A stretch of DNA of 64,000 nt. Source: Levilactobacillus fuyuanensis (GTDB lineage Bacteria; Bacillota; Bacilli; Lactobacillales; Lactobacillaceae). Below, in pieces: positions 15,470 through 60,166 of the stretch. A program made the position numbers and the translations under genes. Below the pieces are notes generated by a model that did no database searches, was not told the origin of the DNA, and worked only from the letters and a program-made list of their open reading frames with translations. The stretch is from positions 1-64,000 of the forward strand of contig NZ_RHNZ01000004.1 of assembly GCF_003946395.1 (NCBI RefSeq), read 5' to 3'. Positions within the stretch are counted from its first letter, which is position 1. Each line of letters begins with the position of its first letter.

Positions 15470-15493
15470 TCAATTAAATTAAAACAGAGAAGA

Positions 15494-15620
15494 GAGTGAG
15501 ACAAAAGGTGGTTAGCCGGCGAGCATTAAGGCTGATAACCGAATAATCCCGGTTTTGGATTGTTTGGTTATCAGTTTTAAGCGGAACCGGCTGCCTTTTG
15601 GCGCACGTTTCGACCATATA
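15494..15620 (+). repeat. Family A hairpin repeat, copy A1
   Basis: A long nested hairpin. Stems are GTG/CAC plus CAAAAGG/CCTTTTG (outer), AGCCGG/CCGGCT (middle) and CTGATAACC/GGTTATCAG (inner). The closed loop keeps AATCCCGG...TTTGGATT and the 3' edge keeps CACGTTTCG. Stem sequences differ from the other copies on both arms together. It lies between the second SMR gene and a terminator, in the same direction. Confidence 0.85.
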
Positions 15621-15632
15621 AGATGGCACAAT

Positions 15633-15664
15633 AAAAGGGCCTGGGGCTTTGTCCCAGGCCCTTT
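15633..15664 (+). terminator. Bidirectional terminator
   Basis: AAAAGGGCCTGGG pairs with CCCAGGCCCTTT. It separates the SMR pair from the convergent SDR gene and probably works on both strands. Confidence 0.88.
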
Positions 15665-17373: not shown

Positions 17374-17428
17374 GATTCAAGCTTCCTTTCAAAATCATTC
17401 AGTTGGGACTGAAACTGGTTGCGCCTTC

Positions 17429-17600
17429 GGGTCGGTGAAAATGGGCCGTGGCGCTGAGGGCGGACGCCTAAAGCCGAGAAGCGGTCTTTAGGCTTGGTGA
17501 CAAGCCGCTGGGAAACGCGTCTTGCCACCACCAATTCTCTAAGTGGCCTAACCCTTGCCACTAAGAGAATTCCCACAGCTGAGCCCATTTTCACCGACCC
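17429..17600 (+). repeat. Family C hairpin repeat, copy C1
   Basis: An 18-bp perfect outer stem, GGGTCGGTGAAAATGGGC with its complement at 17583-17600, closes a branched structure. Inside are GCCTAAAG/CTTTAGGC with the loop CCGAGAAGCGGT, and a CTCTTAG-type hairpin near 17535-17572. This copy lies in the divergent region before the PEPCK-like gene and does not follow a gene on its own strand. Confidence 0.85.
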
Positions 17601-17798
17601 TGCGGCTGACATAGTGTCAGTTCGTAACTGATTTGCGTATTCTTTACGCTGCCGAATTGACTGTCAAGTTGGTGTGAGTCGCAAGCTTATGTAAGTTGCA
17701 TATCGGCATTTTATGGCAGTCAGATTTAACTGAGTTCAATTCTCATGGCGTGCCTAATGACTAATAACCGGAGATACAGATCGACGCCAAACAAACAT

Positions 17799-17930: not shown

Positions 17931-19649
17931 ATGCAGACACCAGCATCAATTGATTTGGCTTCATTTTATGCAAATCCCGACCGCAATGTGGCGGTCTTGG
18001 ACTACAACACGCGCTTTATTACCAGCATTTTTGACCTCGTTAACAGTGACGAACTGGCCGATTTTGTGCGCTTGTTCCTCGACGAACAGCGCGAACACAC
18101 ACCCGAAGTTGCCGATCCAAGCACCACGTTCAATCTGGTCACGCCACAGGTTTATCTCGCAACAATCAAGGCGATTTTGACCGATCAACCGGACGCTTTC
18201 GCACAGTACCAAAAGTCAGAAATTCTGGCCAGCATCGAAGACCTCTATTCGTATTACCGGACGTACTTGCGGGTCGCAACGATGACCATCAAGCAAAATG
18301 ACGTGGTCGCCAGTGAATTTATGACCATCGACCAACGTTTCAACGACCTGGTGATTCGCTTGTACCGGACCATCGAAGAAAAGCTTCAAGGGCACGCCAA
18401 CCACGTTTACCGTCAAGTGAGCGCTGGTTCCAGCGCCTGCATGTTGTTACAACAACTCAAGTGGCCGATGCCCGCGGGTTACGAAAAGCTGCAGGACATT
18501 CGCTTCATTGACCGGTTAATGTTACGGCCACCAATGATGTTGCACACCAAGAGCAACAAGCGTAAAGGGACGTTTACGGCGACGAAGGTCAATCCGTTGA
18601 CGAATTTCAAAGGAACGGAAGACGACTACTACTGCTACCCAGCGATGATTGGCGAAAGTCTGGCCTACATCTACTTCCACCGCGACTACATGGCTTCAGG
18701 GTTGGCACTGGCCAACTTGTTCCAGCTGGCCGATGCGAAGCAGGTTGCCGGTCACAAGCCAGACCTCGTTCTGTTATTTGGGACGCCAGGCGTTGCGAGT
18801 GATGCCGACCCTGAAAACGGCCACTACTTCTACGATGCCGCCAACGACATCTACGTGGGTCAGGTGCCTTACAACGATCAGACCACGTACTTTGGCTACA
18901 TGAAGAAGATGTGCCTGACGCTGCACAACCTGCACATGATTGCGCAGAAACGCCTGCCAATTCACGGGTCAATGATGCGGATTACCTTTGCCAATGGGCA
19001 GACCAAGACCGTCGTCTTCTTCGGTGATTCCGGTGCCGGCAAGTCCGAATCCATCGAGGCCTTACAGCAGATTGCCGATGACAAGATTGTCAGCATGGAG
19101 ACCATTTTCGACGATATGGGCAGTTTCACGTTGCAGGGTAAGGAACTCTACGCGCAGGGAACGGAGACCGGGGCGTTTGTCCGGCTCGATGATCTGAGCA
19201 GTGAAGTGGCTTTCAACAACATGGACCGGGGGATCTACATGAACCCCGAGCAGAAGAACGCGCGGGTGATTATCCCAGCGAACACCTGGCCACGCGTGGT
19301 TGCGCACCACCACATCGATATGTGGGTCTATGCGAACAACTACGACGATGCCGTGGGCGTTCACCGTTTCGCCGACCAAGAGACGGCCAAGGCAACCTTC
19401 ATCGCCGGCAAACGGAAGGCGTTGGGCACCACCGATGAAGTGGGTATGAGCACGACGTTCTTTGCCAACCCATTCGGGCCGGTGCAGGAACAGGCAGCAA
19501 CGCAACCAATCATCGATGCCGTCTTCGATCGTCTGTTCACGGACAACGTCTACGTGGGTGAAATCTACACTCATCTGGGTAATGATAAGTCACAGGACAA
19601 GCTCAATGAGTCGGCGCGGCAATTGTTGGACGAACTGCTAAAATTGTAG
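17931..19649 (+). CDS. PEP carboxykinase-like protein with an HPr-kinase-like P-loop
   Basis: The protein has 572 residues. The C-terminal half has 'GDSGAGKSESIEAL' (Gly365 to Lys371), a Walker A of the PEPCK/HPr-kinase fold, and 'ETIFDDMGSF' about 30 residues on, a likely Walker B. ATP-type PEPCK normally has a GLSGTGKT-like loop, while HPr kinase has GDSG-GKSE, so this protein sits between them. The first 180 residues are helical and match nothing I know. The usual annotation would be ATP-dependent PEP carboxykinase; the true activity is uncertain. The ribosome site is AAAGGGG. Confidence 0.65.
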   Translation: MQTPASIDLASFYANPDRNVAVLDYNTRFITSIFDLVNSDELADFVRLFLDEQREHTPEVADPSTTFNLVTPQVYLATIKAILTDQPDAFAQYQKSEILASIEDLYSYYRTYLRVATMTIKQNDVVASEFMTIDQRFNDLVIRLYRTIEEKLQGHANHVYRQVSAGSSACMLLQQLKWPMPAGYEKLQDIRFIDRLMLRPPMMLHTKSNKRKGTFTATKVNPLTNFKGTEDDYYCYPAMIGESLAYIYFHRDYMASGLALANLFQLADAKQVAGHKPDLVLLFGTPGVASDADPENGHYFYDAANDIYVGQVPYNDQTTYFGYMKKMCLTLHNLHMIAQKRLPIHGSMMRITFANGQTKTVVFFGDSGAGKSESIEALQQIADDKIVSMETIFDDMGSFTLQGKELYAQGTETGAFVRLDDLSSEVAFNNMDRGIYMNPEQKNARVIIPANTWPRVVAHHHIDMWVYANNYDDAVGVHRFADQETAKATFIAGKRKALGTTDEVGMSTTFFANPFGPVQEQAATQPIIDAVFDRLFTDNVYVGEIYTHLGNDKSQDKLNESARQLLDELLKL

Positions 19650-19775
19650 AGTGCGGAAGCAGGCGGTTAGCCGGCAAGCATTAACGTCACACCGGTGAAA
19701 ATCCCGGGTTTGGATTTTGGCTGGGGTGGGGTTAAGCGCAACCGACTGCCTGCTGGAACACGTTTCAGCTATAGT
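19648..19775 (+). repeat. Family A hairpin repeat, copy A2
   Basis: It starts at the stop codon of the PEPCK-like gene. Stems are GTG/CAC and AGCAGGC/GCCTGCT (outer), AGCCGG/CCGACT (middle) and CACACCGG/CTGGGGTG (inner). GCATTAACGTCA, AATCCCGGGTTTGGATT and GGGGTTAAGCGCAAC are kept as in the other copies. The 3' edge is CACGTTTCAGCTATA. Confidence 0.85.
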
Positions 19776-19784
19776 CAATTTCAC

Positions 19785-19955
19785 CGCTTGCGGCTGCCAG
19801 AATTTCGCCTGCTGTGGGGACCGGTCCAAGCCTGAGAAGCGGTCTTGAACCTCGACTTGAAGCCGTCAAAGTTCGGACGTCTCCAAGCGCGTCCCATGAC
19901 CTAACCTGACAAAAGACGTCAGCTAAGGTCATCGTCACTGCCGGCTAAAGGTAGC
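19785..19955 (+). repeat. Family B hairpin repeat, copy B2
   Basis: It follows copy A2 almost directly. Core GCTGTGGGGACCG, hairpin GGTCCAAG/CTTGAACC with loop CCTGAGAAGCGGT, then a strong hairpin ATGACCT...TGAC with GTCA...AGGTCAT. The last hairpin has a quite different sequence from that in B3 and B4 but the same pairing and the same flanks, GTCCC and CATCG. Confidence 0.8.
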
Positions 19956-20175: not shown

Positions 20176-20327
20176 TTGTTTTTCGCAAGGTGAAATTGGT
20201 TTGAATAATGCGGAGGCACAACTAAAATTCACAAGTAGTGTTTTTTAGAGTCGGCCATGCTAGATTGGCGCAATTGTGATAGTGGTCCATGATTTGTTTA
20301 GTGCTGCCAATAAAATCAAACCTAAGC

Positions 20328-20530
20328 CGGAGGAGGCCAGGGATGCAGCCGGCCGTGACGGCGGTGTTAGGCCGGGCGGTTGTTTCTTCCCGGACTTACA
20401 GCGTGGGACGCGTTTGGAAACTCGCATGAACCTCGCGAGATTTCAAACCGAGCCGGAAGCCAGTACTTTGGCTGCAGGCGGTCCCCGCAGCAGGCGTAAT
20501 CCCTGGCAGCCGCAGGCGGCCTATCTCGGC
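20328..20530 (-). repeat. Family B hairpin repeat, copy B5
   Basis: Read on the minus strand it begins about 22 bases after the etfA stop. It shows GCCAGGGAT/ATCCCTGGC as closing stem, the core GCTGCGGGGACCG, a small AGCCAAAG hairpin, and a strong GTGTTAGGCCGGG-type hairpin. The closing stem pairs as well as in B4 although the bases differ. Confidence 0.8.
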
Positions 20531-50932: not shown

Positions 50933-51032
50933 TCGTTAATGTGTGATTTATCTATTTGGGTCGATACTGATAAAGACCGGTACTTAAGTGATCAAGTGGG
51001 GCTGACGTGGCTTAAAGCCATGTTAGCCGTGA

Positions 51033-51199
51033 GGGCGGTGCCAATCAACTCAGCCGTGGGAATTCTCTTAGTGGCGGTCTGTGCCGCTTAGAGAATTGGT
51101 GACTTTGAAACTCGGTCCTCAGAGGTTCAAAGCAAGCCTGGAGACCGCTCTGTGGCTCCAGGCGTCCTCCCACAGCGTCACGGCTGATTGGCACCGCCC
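51033..51199 (-). repeat. Family C hairpin repeat, copy C4
   Basis: Outer stem GGGCGGTGCCAATCA with TGATTGGCACCGCCC (15 bp), CAGCCGTG/CACGGCTG next to it, inner stem GAATTCTCTTAG with CTTAGAGAATT, and CCTGGAG/CTCCAGG. On the minus strand it starts about 18 bases after the GNAT stop codon. Confidence 0.85.
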
Positions 51200-51216
51200 G
51201 GTAAGGCGACCTACTT

Positions 51217-51672: not shown

Positions 51673-51812
51673 TTACAGTGATTCCTTTCCTAAAGCCAAT
51701 TTACCCTATTGTACCGGTAAATCGACGAGGTTGCCAGTGACTTCGTCAGGTGTTGTTGGCTGAGCTGTGCTATACTTGAAATAGATATGGTAAGTTGAAA
51801 GGGGTAGCACAC

Positions 51813-52856
51813 ATGACGGAAGATTTTTATATTGGGACTTACACCAAGCGCATTAGTCGCGGGATTTACCGGGTGAGTCTGGACACGAAGACGCCTAAGC
51901 TGATGGATTGCGAATGGTTAGCGTCTGCTGGTAGTCCGACTTATATTGCGAAGGCCGCTGAAAAGCGCCTGTATGTCATCAACAAGAAGGAAACCGATGG
52001 CCAGACCCAGGGTGGTTTGATCATCTATGATGTTTCCGAAGAAAAGCCACGGGCGATTCAACAAGTGCTGGAACACGGCGCTTCGCCAGCTTACGTTGCG
52101 GTTGATGAAGCCCGGCAATTGGTCTACACGGCCAACTACCACAAGGGCTTGGTCGACGTCTATGCTATCGCTGACGACGGAACCTTGACGGAAACCGACG
52201 AAGTTCACGATGACGATCCAGTTGGACCAGCACCGGAACAGGCCGATGGGGCCCATCCTCATTTCACTAATTTGACGCCGGACAACCGGTTGGTCGTTTG
52301 TGACTTGGGAACGGACAAGGTCTACATTTACGACGTTTCTGACGCCGGAAAATTAACGGCAGTTAGTCACGTTGATCTGCCTGCTGGTTATGGTCCTCGG
52401 CACATCATCTTTGATGACAAGAAGGGTGTTGCTTACCTGGTCGGTGAATTGAGTAGCAACGTCGCTACCTTAGACTACGATGCCGCCGCTGGTAAATTAA
52501 CGGTTAAGCAAATTAGCCACACCATTCCTGATGACTGGACGGCCCACAACGGTTCAGCCGCCATTCGTTTGAGTAGCGATGGCCGGTTCGTGTACGTTTC
52601 CAACCGGGGTCACAACTCCATCACGGTCTTCGCGGCCGATGACGAAGGTAAGCTGACCACGGTACAACGGATCTCCACGGAAGGTGACTTCCCTCGCGAT
52701 TTCAACATGAATTCCGACGAAAGCTTAGTCATCGTTGTTAACCAAAACTCTGACAACGCGACGCTATACAAGCGGGACGCGGACAGCGGTAAGTTAACGA
52801 TGGTGCAGAAGGACTTCATGGTACCAGAAGGCGTTTGCGTGGTGCCGGTGAAATAA
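51813..52856 (+). CDS. Lactonase family protein (7-bladed propeller, 6-phosphogluconolactonase-like)
   Basis: A 347-residue cytoplasmic protein of the YkgB/Pgl type. Repeated strands with 'SRGIYRVSLDTKTP', 'ARQLVYTANYHKGLVDVYAI' and 'GRFVYVSNRGHNSITVF' form the blades. The role would be to open 6-phosphogluconolactone in the oxidative pentose phosphate route, which heterofermenters need. GAAAGGGG precedes ATG 51813. Two family A repeats follow at once. Confidence 0.88.
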   Translation: MTEDFYIGTYTKRISRGIYRVSLDTKTPKLMDCEWLASAGSPTYIAKAAEKRLYVINKKETDGQTQGGLIIYDVSEEKPRAIQQVLEHGASPAYVAVDEARQLVYTANYHKGLVDVYAIADDGTLTETDEVHDDDPVGPAPEQADGAHPHFTNLTPDNRLVVCDLGTDKVYIYDVSDAGKLTAVSHVDLPAGYGPRHIIFDDKKGVAYLVGELSSNVATLDYDAAAGKLTVKQISHTIPDDWTAHNGSAAIRLSSDGRFVYVSNRGHNSITVFAADDEGKLTTVQRISTEGDFPRDFNMNSDESLVIVVNQNSDNATLYKRDADSGKLTMVQKDFMVPEGVCVVPVK

Positions 52857-52984
52857 AGAGTGTGAGCTAAGGCGGTTAGCCAATGAGCATTAACGTCATA
52901 AGAAGAAAAATCCCGGGTTTGGATTATTCTTCTTATGGGGTTAAGCGCAGTTGGCTGCCTTGGGGAACACGTTTCGGCAACATA
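52857..52984 (+). repeat. Family A hairpin repeat, copy A3
   Basis: It begins on the base after the lactonase stop codon. Stems are GTGT/ACAC and AAGGC/GCCTT (outer), AGCCAA/TTGGCT (middle), GC-TTAAC/GTTAAGC, and CATAAGAAGAAA with TTCTTCTTATG (inner). The loop AATCCCGGGTTTGGATT and the edge CACGTTTCGGC are kept. Confidence 0.88.
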
Positions 52985-53112
52985 AAATTAGGGACGTTAT
53001 CAGTGAGCATTAACGTCAATAAGGAGAAAATCCCGGGTTTGGATTTTTCCTTATTGGGGTTAAGCGGAACTGGCTGCCCTTGCGAACACGTTTCGGCAAC
53101 AGAGAATTAGGG
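52985..53112 (+). repeat. Family A hairpin repeat, copy A4 (tandem with A3)
   Basis: Inner stem CAATAAGGA with TCCTTATTG; loop and TTAAC/GTTAAG stems as in A3. The outer 5' arm is reduced, so it may use only part of the stem. The 3' edge ends in CACGTTTCGGCAAC and ATTAGGG, the same junction as between A3 and A4. Confidence 0.8.
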
Positions 53113-57713: not shown

Positions 57714-57917
57714 GTGAGTGAAGAACAGATAGCACGACTATGTGAAATTGCCCCCAAGTATGGCTTACATCTGGAACATGAGGGCTTGGTCATCACCAAG
57801 GTAAACGACCAACCCACGGAGCTAGACACAACCAAGTACATGCCGGACCAGTTCATTGATTTGCTGACACAGATTATTGGGACGAATATGAAGGCCGATT
57901 TGTGGGATTGGAAATAG
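57714..57917 (+). CDS. Small acidic protein, 67 residues
   Basis: It starts with GTG eight bases after AAGGAG, 65 bases after the HPr-like gene. The product begins MSEEQIARLCEIAPKYGLHL and ends in 'LWDWK'. It is soluble and has no known motif. It may be cotranscribed with the HPr-like gene. A family A repeat follows the stop at once. Confidence 0.65.
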   Translation: MSEEQIARLCEIAPKYGLHLEHEGLVITKVNDQPTELDTTKYMPDQFIDLLTQIIGTNMKADLWDWK

Positions 57918-57921
57918 GAAA

Positions 57922-58056
57922 AGAGTGCGCCAAGGAGCGGTTAGACAGCGAGCATTAACGTCAATAAGCAAAAAATCCTGGGTTTGGATTATTTGCTTAT
58001 TGGGGTTAAGCGCAACTGTCTGCTCCTTGGCGCACGTTTCGGCTATATGAGATTAG
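57922..58056 (+). repeat. Family A hairpin repeat, copy A5
   Basis: The best-paired copy. Outer stem GTGCGCCAAGGAGC (57925-57938) with GCTCCTTGGCGCAC (58022-58035), 14 bp perfect. Middle AGACAG/CTGTCT. Inner CAATAAGCAAA with TTTGCTTATTG. The loop reads AATCCTGGGTTTGGATT. It begins about five bases after a stop codon. Confidence 0.9.
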
Positions 58057-58177
58057 GAAACAACTCAGAGCATTAACGTCATAAGGAGAAAAATCCCGGG
58101 TTTGGATTATTCTTCTTATGGGGTTAAGCGCAGCTAGCTGCCTGTTGTCCCACGTTTCGGCTATATGAAGTTAGAAA
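58057..58177 (+). repeat. Family A hairpin repeat, copy A6 (tandem with A5)
   Basis: Inner stem CATAAGGAGAA with TTCTTCTTATG, with small mismatches; outer stem shortened to ACAAC/GTTGT. Loop and 3' edge CACGTTTCGGCTATAT as in A5. It borders the IS200/IS605 element. Confidence 0.8.
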
Positions 58178-58239
58178 TCAGATTTTTCCAAAGCGGTATC
58201 CATAGCTTCAAGACAAACAGTCCGCAACGATCAATTATA

Positions 58240-58397: not shown

Positions 58398-59651
58398 TTA
58401 CAAGAGTTCTAAACCCTTAGCTAAAATATTTTTAGCCGCGTTATGATCACGCACATGGAATACCCCACAATTAGGACACGTCCACTTGCGATCAGCTAAC
58501 GTCAACTTGTTCTTACCAGTCAAGACGTGACCACAATCACTACAAGTTTGCGTTGTATTTCGGGGATTGATAGTCAAAAATTTCCGACCGTACAACTCAG
58601 CTTTGTAGGCTAGCATGTTTAATAGTGTTCGCCAACCAACGTCCGAGATACTCATTGCCAAAGCATGGTTCCGCAACATGTTTTTACTCCGCAGTTCTTC
58701 AGCTACGACTAAATCGTGGTTTTTGATCAAGGCCGTAGAGACGTGGTGTAAAAAGTTCTTACGTTGATTGGCAACTTTAAGTTGTAACTTAGCTACTAGT
58801 AACCGTTGCTTTTGATAATTTTTGGACCCTGATAAGCGTCGTTGGCTCTTTTTAGCTCGTCTAGCCCGCCGTGACAGCTTTCGTTGAGCTTTAGCCAGTC
58901 TTCCCTTAATCGTCCGGTAATAACGTGGATTAGCAATCACCTGTCCATTGGAATCCGTCAGAAAATTATCAAGGTTTAGATCAATCCCGATTTTAGATTT
59001 CGTAACTCTTTGCTTGGCAACGAAAGGGTATGCCGATCCAAGCTGCAGGGACACAAAATAATGGCCGACAGTATCCATTGAGACCGTTGTCGTACCAACC
59101 CTGACATCATCGGCACGTGATAAAAGTTTTGATGGAAATCCCTTGAAACGGAGACGCCCAAGCTTGGGTAGTTGTAGGTGGTGGGTATCATTTAGTCTTA
59201 CGCTTCCATTGCTCATGGTTGGCACTGTCACCTTGGCACTGTAAAGACACGACGTTTGATAAGTCTGAGTATAACTACGTTTATGAAATTTGGGAGTCCC
59301 CGTCTGATGGACCTGGTGGAATAGTTTCCAAGCAGTCTTGTAATTCTTGATAGCATTGGCTTTCATCAGACTGTCAAAGTCCGGATGATTGAGCCAACCA
59401 TGACTATTGGAGATAGCAGTTGATGGTCTTTTTAGACGTTCAGTCAAATCAGCGATTCGATCCAAGACAATTGTAATCGGAATCTTCACTTGCTTTAACC
59501 AGAATAGGTCATTGTTCATGCCATTCATCTGATTATAAATAAACCGACTCGCGTCACTGTTACGCTTAATCAGTCGTTTTTGTTCAGTTGAAGGAAAGAC
59601 TCTAATCTTAACGCCATAATGATAAGGTAATTGGGACATTGTTTTCGCCAT
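58398..59651 (-). CDS. tnpB: TnpB, RNA-guided nuclease of IS200/IS605
   Basis: The protein has 417 residues. RuvC residues are present: Asp224 in 'KIGIDLNLDNF', Glu318 in 'VVAEELRSKNM' and Asp402 in 'VRDHNAAKNI'. The zinc finger Cys370/373 and Cys392/395 ('TCSDCGH', 'TCPNCG') is complete. The nuclease therefore looks active. It uses a transposon-encoded RNA to cut the empty donor site. AGGAGG precedes ATG 59651; a longer frame upstream has no ribosome site. Confidence 0.93.
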   Translation of the reverse strand: MAKTMSQLPYHYGVKIRVFPSTEQKRLIKRNSDASRFIYNQMNGMNNDLFWLKQVKIPITIVLDRIADLTERLKRPSTAISNSHGWLNHPDFDSLMKANAIKNYKTAWKLFHQVHQTGTPKFHKRSYTQTYQTSCLYSAKVTVPTMSNGSVRLNDTHHLQLPKLGRLRFKGFPSKLLSRADDVRVGTTTVSMDTVGHYFVSLQLGSAYPFVAKQRVTKSKIGIDLNLDNFLTDSNGQVIANPRYYRTIKGRLAKAQRKLSRRARRAKKSQRRLSGSKNYQKQRLLVAKLQLKVANQRKNFLHHVSTALIKNHDLVVAEELRSKNMLRNHALAMSISDVGWRTLLNMLAYKAELYGRKFLTINPRNTTQTCSDCGHVLTGKNKLTLADRKWTCPNCGVFHVRDHNAAKNILAKGLELL

Positions 59652-59746
59652 AAATTGCCACCTCCTTTTGCTTGATAGTAGCATATCATATGAGTATACT
59701 GTATCCATAGCAAAACGACTTATAATAATATTTATGGAGGAATCAT

Positions 59747-60166
59747 ATGAGCAAAGACACTAGCGGAGCAATTCACGAACGAGGTTATGTTTACAACTTT
59801 CATTTTCACTTGGTCTGGGTCACTAAATACCGGCATGAAGCATTTACAACGCCAAAGTTAGTCGCTGAAATGACCGATATTCTAACGAAAATAGCCCGAC
59901 TGAACGAAGTGACCATTGAACAAATGGAAGTAATGCCTGACCATATCCACTTATTACTGAGCTTTAAACCCAAGTATGCACCCACCAATATTGTCAAAGC
60001 CTTCAAGGGCGGTTCGGCTCGCCTGTTCTTTGAACTACATCCAGAGATAAAGGCTCAGAAGTTTTGGGGTGGGCATCTCTGGGCTCCAAGTTACTTCATG
60101 AGTACCCTTGGTGATATGAGCAAGAAAACTGTAGAAAACTACATTGCCAGTCAACGAAAGAGATAA
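59747..60166 (+). CDS. tnpA: TnpA, Y1 (HUH) transposase of IS200/IS605
   Basis: A 139-residue single-strand transposase. 'PDHIHLLLSF' is the HUH motif and Tyr in 'KKTVENYIASQ' is the nucleophile. It cuts and joins the top strand at the hairpin ends. ATGGAGG precedes the ATG. It diverges from tnpB, with 95 bases between the two starts. Confidence 0.95.
   Translation: MSKDTSGAIHERGYVYNFHFHLVWVTKYRHEAFTTPKLVAEMTDILTKIARLNEVTIEQMEVMPDHIHLLLSFKPKYAPTNIVKAFKGGSARLFFELHPEIKAQKFWGGHLWAPSYFMSTLGDMSKKTVENYIASQRKR

Follow-up and report, generated by a model that had tools for sequence, protein, structure and literature searches.

Introduction

REP sequences are extragenic hairpins of 20-40 bp with GTAG or CGTC tags and are thought to move as single strands, and the bacterial MITEs include EFAR of the enterococci, according to the available portion of PMC3733652. 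The available portion of a stem-loop survey (PMC2267715) describes Efa-1 of E. faecalis as an intergenic stem-loop family of 163 nt and 65 copies built as a pair of adjacent hairpins, presents BOX and RUP of Streptococcus pneumoniae as high-copy intergenic stem-loop repeats, and has a single species of the Lactobacillaceae, Lactobacillus johnsonii, with one stem-loop family, located in coding regions. We infer that Efa-1 and EFAR are the same repeat. EFAR targets stem-loops and replaces most of them, BOX is modular, and RUP has terminal inverted repeats. Candidate structured RNAs of the Lactobacillales include Lacto-usp, Lacto-rpoB and the L17 downstream element (PMC2864571, available portion), where Lacto-int is tabulated without an Rfam number and so falls outside our Rfam comparison.

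Here we describe a hairpin repeat that occurs six times in the window, that is, in the whole 64-kb stretch of Levilactobacillus fuyuanensis DNA that was analysed. An initial annotation, made from the letters alone, had recognised no named family in this repeat, and that judgement holds: none of 4227 Rfam families matches the element at gathering score, either in the window or in 16 loci of other genera. With a loose cut-off the 57922 region gave three matches, all far below their thresholds. A search of titles and abstracts, whose coverage leaves out most subscription papers, found no description of the element in Lactobacillaceae. The repeat is an abundant and widespread structured element of well-studied food and gut bacteria that lacks an Rfam match. 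We propose, with a probability of about 55%, that it is a miniature non-coding mobile element of the Lactobacillaceae, spreading in the form of a folded single strand.

Six copies in the window

The six copies lie at 15493, 19648, 52857, 52985, 57922 and 58057, as initially annotated, and the stems quoted for them were found in the window copies. The annotation rightly saw a recurring hairpin unit; its size of ~125 nt resolves into a unit of ~118 nt plus a less conserved tail. Likewise, the sequence blocks that had been called fixed are shared by the copies but not without departures. The 15493 copy deviates from all four blocks (GCATTAAGGCTG, AATCCCGGTTTTGGATT, AGTTTTAAGCG, CACGTTTCGA), the 57922 copy differs by one base in the loop block, and the 19648 copy departs from the last block (CACGTTTCAG). 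Four of the six copies are complete units. The remaining two, at 52985 and 58057, are the second units of tandem pairs and have no left outer and middle arms.

All six copies are on the + strand. The complete unit at 57922-58039 (AGAGTG...CACGTTT; 148.1 bits) starts 4 nt past a same-strand TAG at 57915-57917. The left arm of its outer stem, GTGCGCCAAGGAGC (57925-57938), is followed by a GGTT bulge (57939-57942) that precedes the left middle arm AGACAG (57943-57948), the conserved box GCATTAAC with the unpaired A (57952-57959), and the left inner arm CAATAAGCAAA (57962-57972). The 3' half consists of the right inner arm TTTGCTTATTG (57992-58002), the conserved box GTTAAGC (58005-58011), the right middle arm CTGTCT (58016-58021), and the right outer arm GCTCCTTGGCGCAC (58022-58035), then GTTT. 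The tandem second unit, lacking the left outer and middle arms, spans 58046-58157 (82.6 bits). At 52857-52974 a complete unit (148.8 bits) stands immediately 3' of the TAA stop of a 353-aa ORF (51795-52856), and its tandem partner without a left arm occupies 52985-53093. The first two bases of the complete unit at 19648-19765 (133.6 bits) finish the TAG stop of ORF 17931-19649. Finally, the complete unit at 15493-15610 (142.8 bits) is of a subtype with a CTGATAACC inner stem, and a terminator-like hairpin lies 3' of it at 15634-15664.

Each copy was folded alongside 200 dinucleotide shuffles. The folding z values ranged from -9.2 to -2.9. For four of the six copies no shuffle folded better; one did for 58057 and four for 19648, and every copy beat at least 196 of 200.

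Several other features of the window were seen. The 57922 pair is adjoined by a 436-aa ORF (58398-59708, - strand), which we take to be possibly TnpB-like, and by a Y1_Tnp gene (59747-60166, + strand); the two probably form an IS200/IS605 element. DNA related to the 58398-60166 region is also close to copies at two sites in the sister species G007. Other high-copy repeats of ~160-200 nt, at 51013-51210, 17419-17612, 19785-19947 and 20325-20500, have many matches in this and sister genomes and are distinct from the hairpin family. Positions 1-76, at the contig edge, are the end of a group II intron (RF00029).

Anatomy, fold and covariation

Both ends of the unit, AGAGYG...CRCGTTT, were recognised in 188 of 231 matches (43 were dropped), and 172 of these 188 units measure 115-122 nt. 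The consensus of the 5' half is AGA-GYG-outer stem-G-NTT bulge-middle stem-YGA-GC-A-TTAAC-inner stem-variable loop, and that of the 3' half is inner stem-GTTAA-GC-G.AR-middle stem-outer stem-CRC-GTTT. GYG and CRC pair close to the very ends of the unit, within a longer stem. Conservation is highest at both ends, at one G preceding the bulge, at the GA and the unpaired A, in the TTA/TTA boxes, and at one A ahead of the right middle arm.

Two alignments were used for covariation. The first, A1, holds 37 full copies from the L. fuyuanensis genome and was not fitted to the fold; the covariance model, R1, was built after A1 had been aligned. The second, A2, holds 147 distinct sequences from 16 other genera, taken from the best 150 of 161 matches and aligned by the model; four genera supply 115 of the 150 rows, and its counts lean towards the fold because best-scoring matches were aligned to the model. 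Pairing was found in 97.3% of A1 cells, against 80.8% when shuffled and 31-48% when slid, and in 95.9% of A2 cells, against 64.3% and 35-41%. With pairing kept, 25 of the 41 pairs showed double changes in A1, and 40 of 41 were changed on both sides in A2. In both alignments the covariation went beyond all 500 shuffles and all slid versions, as it should for a structured RNA or single-strand family. Further, G-U cells outnumbered A-C cells, 110 to 12 in A1 and 325 to 58 in A2, and given this excess it is the given strand that folds, as RNA or single-stranded DNA. One strand of the unit forms a single long hairpin of stacked stems, in which the unpaired landmarks and the termini (AGAGYG, the G before the bulge, GA, GC-A-TTA, TTA-GC and CRCGTTT) are well conserved while the stems change together.

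Abundance and range

A covariance-model search, proposed with the initial annotation, found the family genome-wide and in other Lactobacillaceae. In the L. fuyuanensis genome there were 117 model matches at E<=0.1, antisense shadows included. Forty score at least 129 bits, and 30 further same-strand matches score 62-102 bits; the remainder are lower-scoring pieces and antisense shadows. Some of the 62-102-bit matches are truncated second units, and most belong to a second class that has the common skeleton with other stems. BLAST with the 57922 region gave 45 matches in the same genome. The second-class copies (L047, L048, L050-L053, L058) often occur in twos, one copy of each of two types, and a right half-copy sometimes separates the two; they look as if dimers had spread as units. 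Three short copies (L042, L060, L061) have no inner hairpin and are joined at TTAGC or TTATC, junctions as expected of slippage between repeats. Among nine partial matches the 5' side was lost in six, and the other three were one full copy that had been misparsed, one chance hit and one copy with an inner deletion; a trend to 5'-side loss was set aside, since the matches had been anchored on the 3' end.

Of 251 Lactobacillaceae genomes from 40 genera, the model detected the repeat in 132, which represent 24 genera, with up to 13 candidates scored per genome. A fuller search of 16 genomes of 16 genera gave 3 to 102 matches each, shadows included. Within Levilactobacillus, all 24 genomes (that of L. 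fuyuanensis included) have at least one match, and the number per genome runs from 1 to at least 83, shadows included. A single match was found in three of them: G005 (72% completeness), G015 and G021. G015, which is 99% complete, has no intact copy, only 3 weak matches of 26-31 bits, of which the one examined is a deletion remnant. A strict pattern was found in at least 115 stretches; all 80 matches listed belong to lactobacilli or pediococci. Outside the family but within the order, 2 of 16 genomes gave weak matches of at most 52 bits, with a similar build.

Mobile replicons were also searched. The strict pattern had no match in 2.9 million viral contigs, and positions 57915-58180 as query had none among phage and plasmid records. 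A copy from a genome of another family (G033) likewise matched no plasmid or phage, and a copy from genus g17 matched one plasmid, of Latilactobacillus curvatus. In another genome (G099), two loci, L235 on contig C1 and L236 on contig C2, have equal unit scores and spacing on a chromosome-size and an 18-kb contig.

Placement at gene ends

For 64 of 78 same-strand matches in the L. fuyuanensis genome the nearest upstream ORF is on the same strand, as judged by a simple ORF caller that picks spurious ORFs and misses short ones, such as the 67-aa frame before 57922. A set of 153 first copies, with no CGTTT in the preceding 30 nt and with distinct 60-nt flanks, was then assembled; because the loci of other genera were drawn from the best-scoring matches listed, the counts that follow lean to intact copies. 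A same-strand stop codon (frames of at least 60 codons) lies within 14 nt of the unit start in 79 of the 153, and the antisense control, taken on the other strand at the 3' end, gave 6. There is a peak at -2 (28 of the 79); here the unit supplies the last two letters of a TAG. In another 21 of the 153 a T-run closely precedes the unit, at a distance of 4-7 nt in 17 cases. Nine, all from genus g29, are nested in a hairpin, and 44 have none of these placements. In g29, four different hairpin flanks carry a unit at their tip, as judged by eye, and one of the four also exists without a unit. Also by eye, arrays of 3-5 units in head-to-tail order were counted in four genera other than Levilactobacillus. 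On the Latilactobacillus curvatus plasmid, which was independently annotated, the copy begins 9 nt past the stop of a CDS. Since dozens of genes in some genomes have this strong hairpin right after their stop codon, the element may shape message ends widely.

The 106 host proteins gave 7 cross-group pairs, 3 of them representing one gene. In three genera a copy (L087, L106, L244) lies 3-10 nt after the stop of that one gene, presumably peptidase-like. Conserved host genes were rejected as a sign of function, with so few of the 106 shared between genera.

Turnover between sister species

The sister species G007 was compared with L. fuyuanensis (G000) by means of the 30 best-scoring of its ~49 same-strand copies. 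Twenty-seven of the 30 are at sites also occupied in L. fuyuanensis, and new sites therefore rarely arise on the time scale that separates the two; the other three have no counterpart among the L. fuyuanensis loci compared. A positional counterpart was assigned to 26 copies, with flanks 87-99% identical. For 12 of the 26, an L. fuyuanensis copy elsewhere is closer than the positional counterpart by more than 3 points, for example 94.3% versus 77.2%. Tandem sites, at which one of the two units inevitably has no counterpart, account for five of these 12 exchanged copies. For L145 the comparison was with the unit of the other type at that site; L139, 3.6 points closer to the second unit of its own site, was not scored as exchanged.

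Of 117 paired double changes, 92 were at the 12 exchanged sites and 25 at the 14 other sites; per changed pair, these are 92 of 132 and 25 of 75. Single-sided changes numbered 33 at the exchanged sites and 47 at the others, and of the latter 21 break a pair and 26 keep pairing. Twenty of the 25 double changes outside the exchanged sites are in L118, L130 and L139, for which the counterpart is not clearly the closest copy. Because most double changes are at exchanged sites, the covariation that separates these two species is mostly accounted for by wholesale replacement rather than by slow in-place compensation. Older covariation must have arisen in lineages that spread. It had been proposed at the outset that the fold is kept and not the sequence. 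That the fold is under selection stands, but the level needs amending: in this one species pair the fold is kept mainly in what is copied and spread, and more weakly at each site. Covariation alone cannot separate selection on the fold in a spreading lineage from selection per site; site-by-site turnover can.

Individual sites were then compared. At the gene end upstream of 52857, where L. fuyuanensis has its tandem pair, G007 has a single unit, the units of G014 and G001 differ greatly in their stems, and that of G009 is truncated; the other genomes compared by eye have no unit there. At site 15493, G007 has a different terminator-like hairpin where L. fuyuanensis has both unit and terminator. 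One site can hold different members of the family in sister species. Two sites near L023 that seem empty in G007 contain deletion remnants, i.e., they are losses. No target duplication or clean empty site was seen at three G007 sites or at the g29 tips.

These observations bear on the main rival to a mobile hairpin, namely that the element is a 3' UTR RNA of use to the host, which shields the end of the message, adjusts decay or the termination of translation, or serves as a binding site for an RNA-binding protein, and which has spread by its usefulness. It is favoured by the same-strand fold, the start at stop codons with a peak at -2 (28 of 79), the very stable folds, the 27 of 30 G007 copies at sites shared with L. 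fuyuanensis, the single gene carrying a copy in three genera, and the 26 of 47 single-sided changes that keep a pair at non-exchanged sites. However, the other 21 of those 47 changes break a pair, host genes overlap little (7 cross-group pairs among 106 proteins), the number of matches per Levilactobacillus genome varies from 1 to at least 83 with none intact in G015, and some copies stand behind a T-run, perhaps past the terminator. Drift at non-exchanged sites, the near-absence from G015 and the T-run copies oppose usefulness to the host as the only cause, and we regard this reading as unlikely.

Possible routes of spread

If the hairpin moves, a partner gene might accompany it. Y1_Tnp was matched in 47 of 132 bearing and 28 of 119 other genomes, a weak association (p = 0.04, kinship not corrected), and RVT_1 in 34 of 132 and 29 of 119, which is no association (p = 0.88, kinship not corrected). 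Neither was matched in 64 of the 132 bearing genomes, several of the most copy-rich included, so that Y1 transposase and reverse transcriptase are unsupported as partners. A search of 83 loci and four window stretches for a gene that recurs next to copies yielded, as judged by eye, ordinary families such as transporter-like ones, along with ORFs of no specific kind.

One candidate is a REP-type element whose single-stranded hairpins would be mobilised by an IS200/IS605-like (Y1, RAYT) transposase. This would fit the hairpin, its head-to-tail arrays, the weak positive Y1_Tnp association, and the Y1_Tnp gene and probable TnpB-like ORF beside the 57922 copies. Against this, Y1_Tnp has no match in 85 of the 132 bearing genomes, and G080, G099, G119, G120 and G223 are without it yet have 62-102 matches each, shadows included. 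Further, the unit ends have no conserved GTAG or CGTC tag, and no transposase gene recurs beside the copies. We consider this route doubtful. A more speculative route, and one we hold no less doubtful, is that the element inserts at places where RNA ends or is cut, such as stop codons, the ends of terminator T-runs and hairpin tips. Insertion there might use an intermediate that is RNA or single-stranded, need no dedicated transposase of a known kind, and keep displacing older copies at the same gene ends. If true, bacteria would have a mobile RNA or DNA of a new, 3'-end-directed kind.

The covariation might instead be a by-product of mutation, with template switching in an imperfect palindrome matching one arm to the other. 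Long near-palindromes invite such arm correction, and slippage is evident in the tandem and deleted forms. But template switching would erase mismatches and bulges, several of which rank among the best-conserved positions, and it would produce no strand bias such as the ninefold excess of G-U over A-C in A1; we think it very improbable. Least credible is spread driven by a reverse transcriptase, in the manner of a bacterial SINE, which suits the same-strand fold and the location at message ends but meets no RVT_1 match in 98 of the 132 bearing genomes, the L. fuyuanensis assembly included, and neither tail nor target duplication was seen. That assembly has no RVT_1 match despite the group II intron end at 1-76, whose gene may have been lost at contig breaks.

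Discussion

We favor a miniature mobile hairpin. The folded strand would be recognised by its landmarks, through a protein or a host process, and that protein or process would copy it. The new copy would be placed at a gene end, beside a terminator or at the tip of another hairpin; at gene ends it might do least harm, and transcription would be possible. Each copy would then drift, break, or give way to a fresh, well-folded member. Under this proposal the stems covary across copies because the fold is selected at each round of spread: spread would depend on the fold and recognition on the landmarks, and a position at gene ends would keep the element harmless. Messages are likely to be affected at their 3' ends as a by-product, which the proposal does not require. 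We count against the mobile-hairpin reading the ordinary neighbours and the weak or missing association with Y1_Tnp and RVT_1, the remnants at seemingly empty sites, the failure to find a precise empty site with a target duplication, the 27 of 30 G007 copies at shared sites, the negative searches of phage records and viral contigs, and the 44 of 153 copies without a recognised placement, and the replacement at a site could be gene conversion instead. Identifying the moving factor would be new.

How does the element compare with known systems? Integron attC sites lie in arrays in which gene cassettes separate them, unlike the arrays of the hairpin, whose units follow one another with hardly any spacer and with no intervening genes. 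Lacto-usp, Lacto-rpoB and the L17 downstream element come from the same order as the hairpin repeat, and it gave no Rfam match. BOX and RUP, compared by description only, are many-copy intergenic stem-loops, modular in the case of BOX and with terminal inverted repeats in the case of RUP. With REPs and their RAYT transposases the element has in common an extragenic hairpin, thought in the case of REPs to move single-stranded; it differs in its length of ~118 nt, in having no conserved tag at its ends or flanks, and in that no linked RAYT gene was seen. Set beside EFAR by description only, it is alike in being a non-coding hairpin repeat of many copies in a related group of bacteria. Efa-1 consists of two adjacent hairpins, in contrast to the one hairpin of ~118 nt and nearly fixed length described here. 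The replacement of stem-loops by EFAR, again compared by description only, has possible parallels at site 15493 and at the g29 hairpin tips, which suggest similar targeting; 19648 gave no clear sign of it. In sum, the hairpin repeat of the Lactobacillaceae appears by its kind to be akin to the REP, MITE and EFAR repeats.
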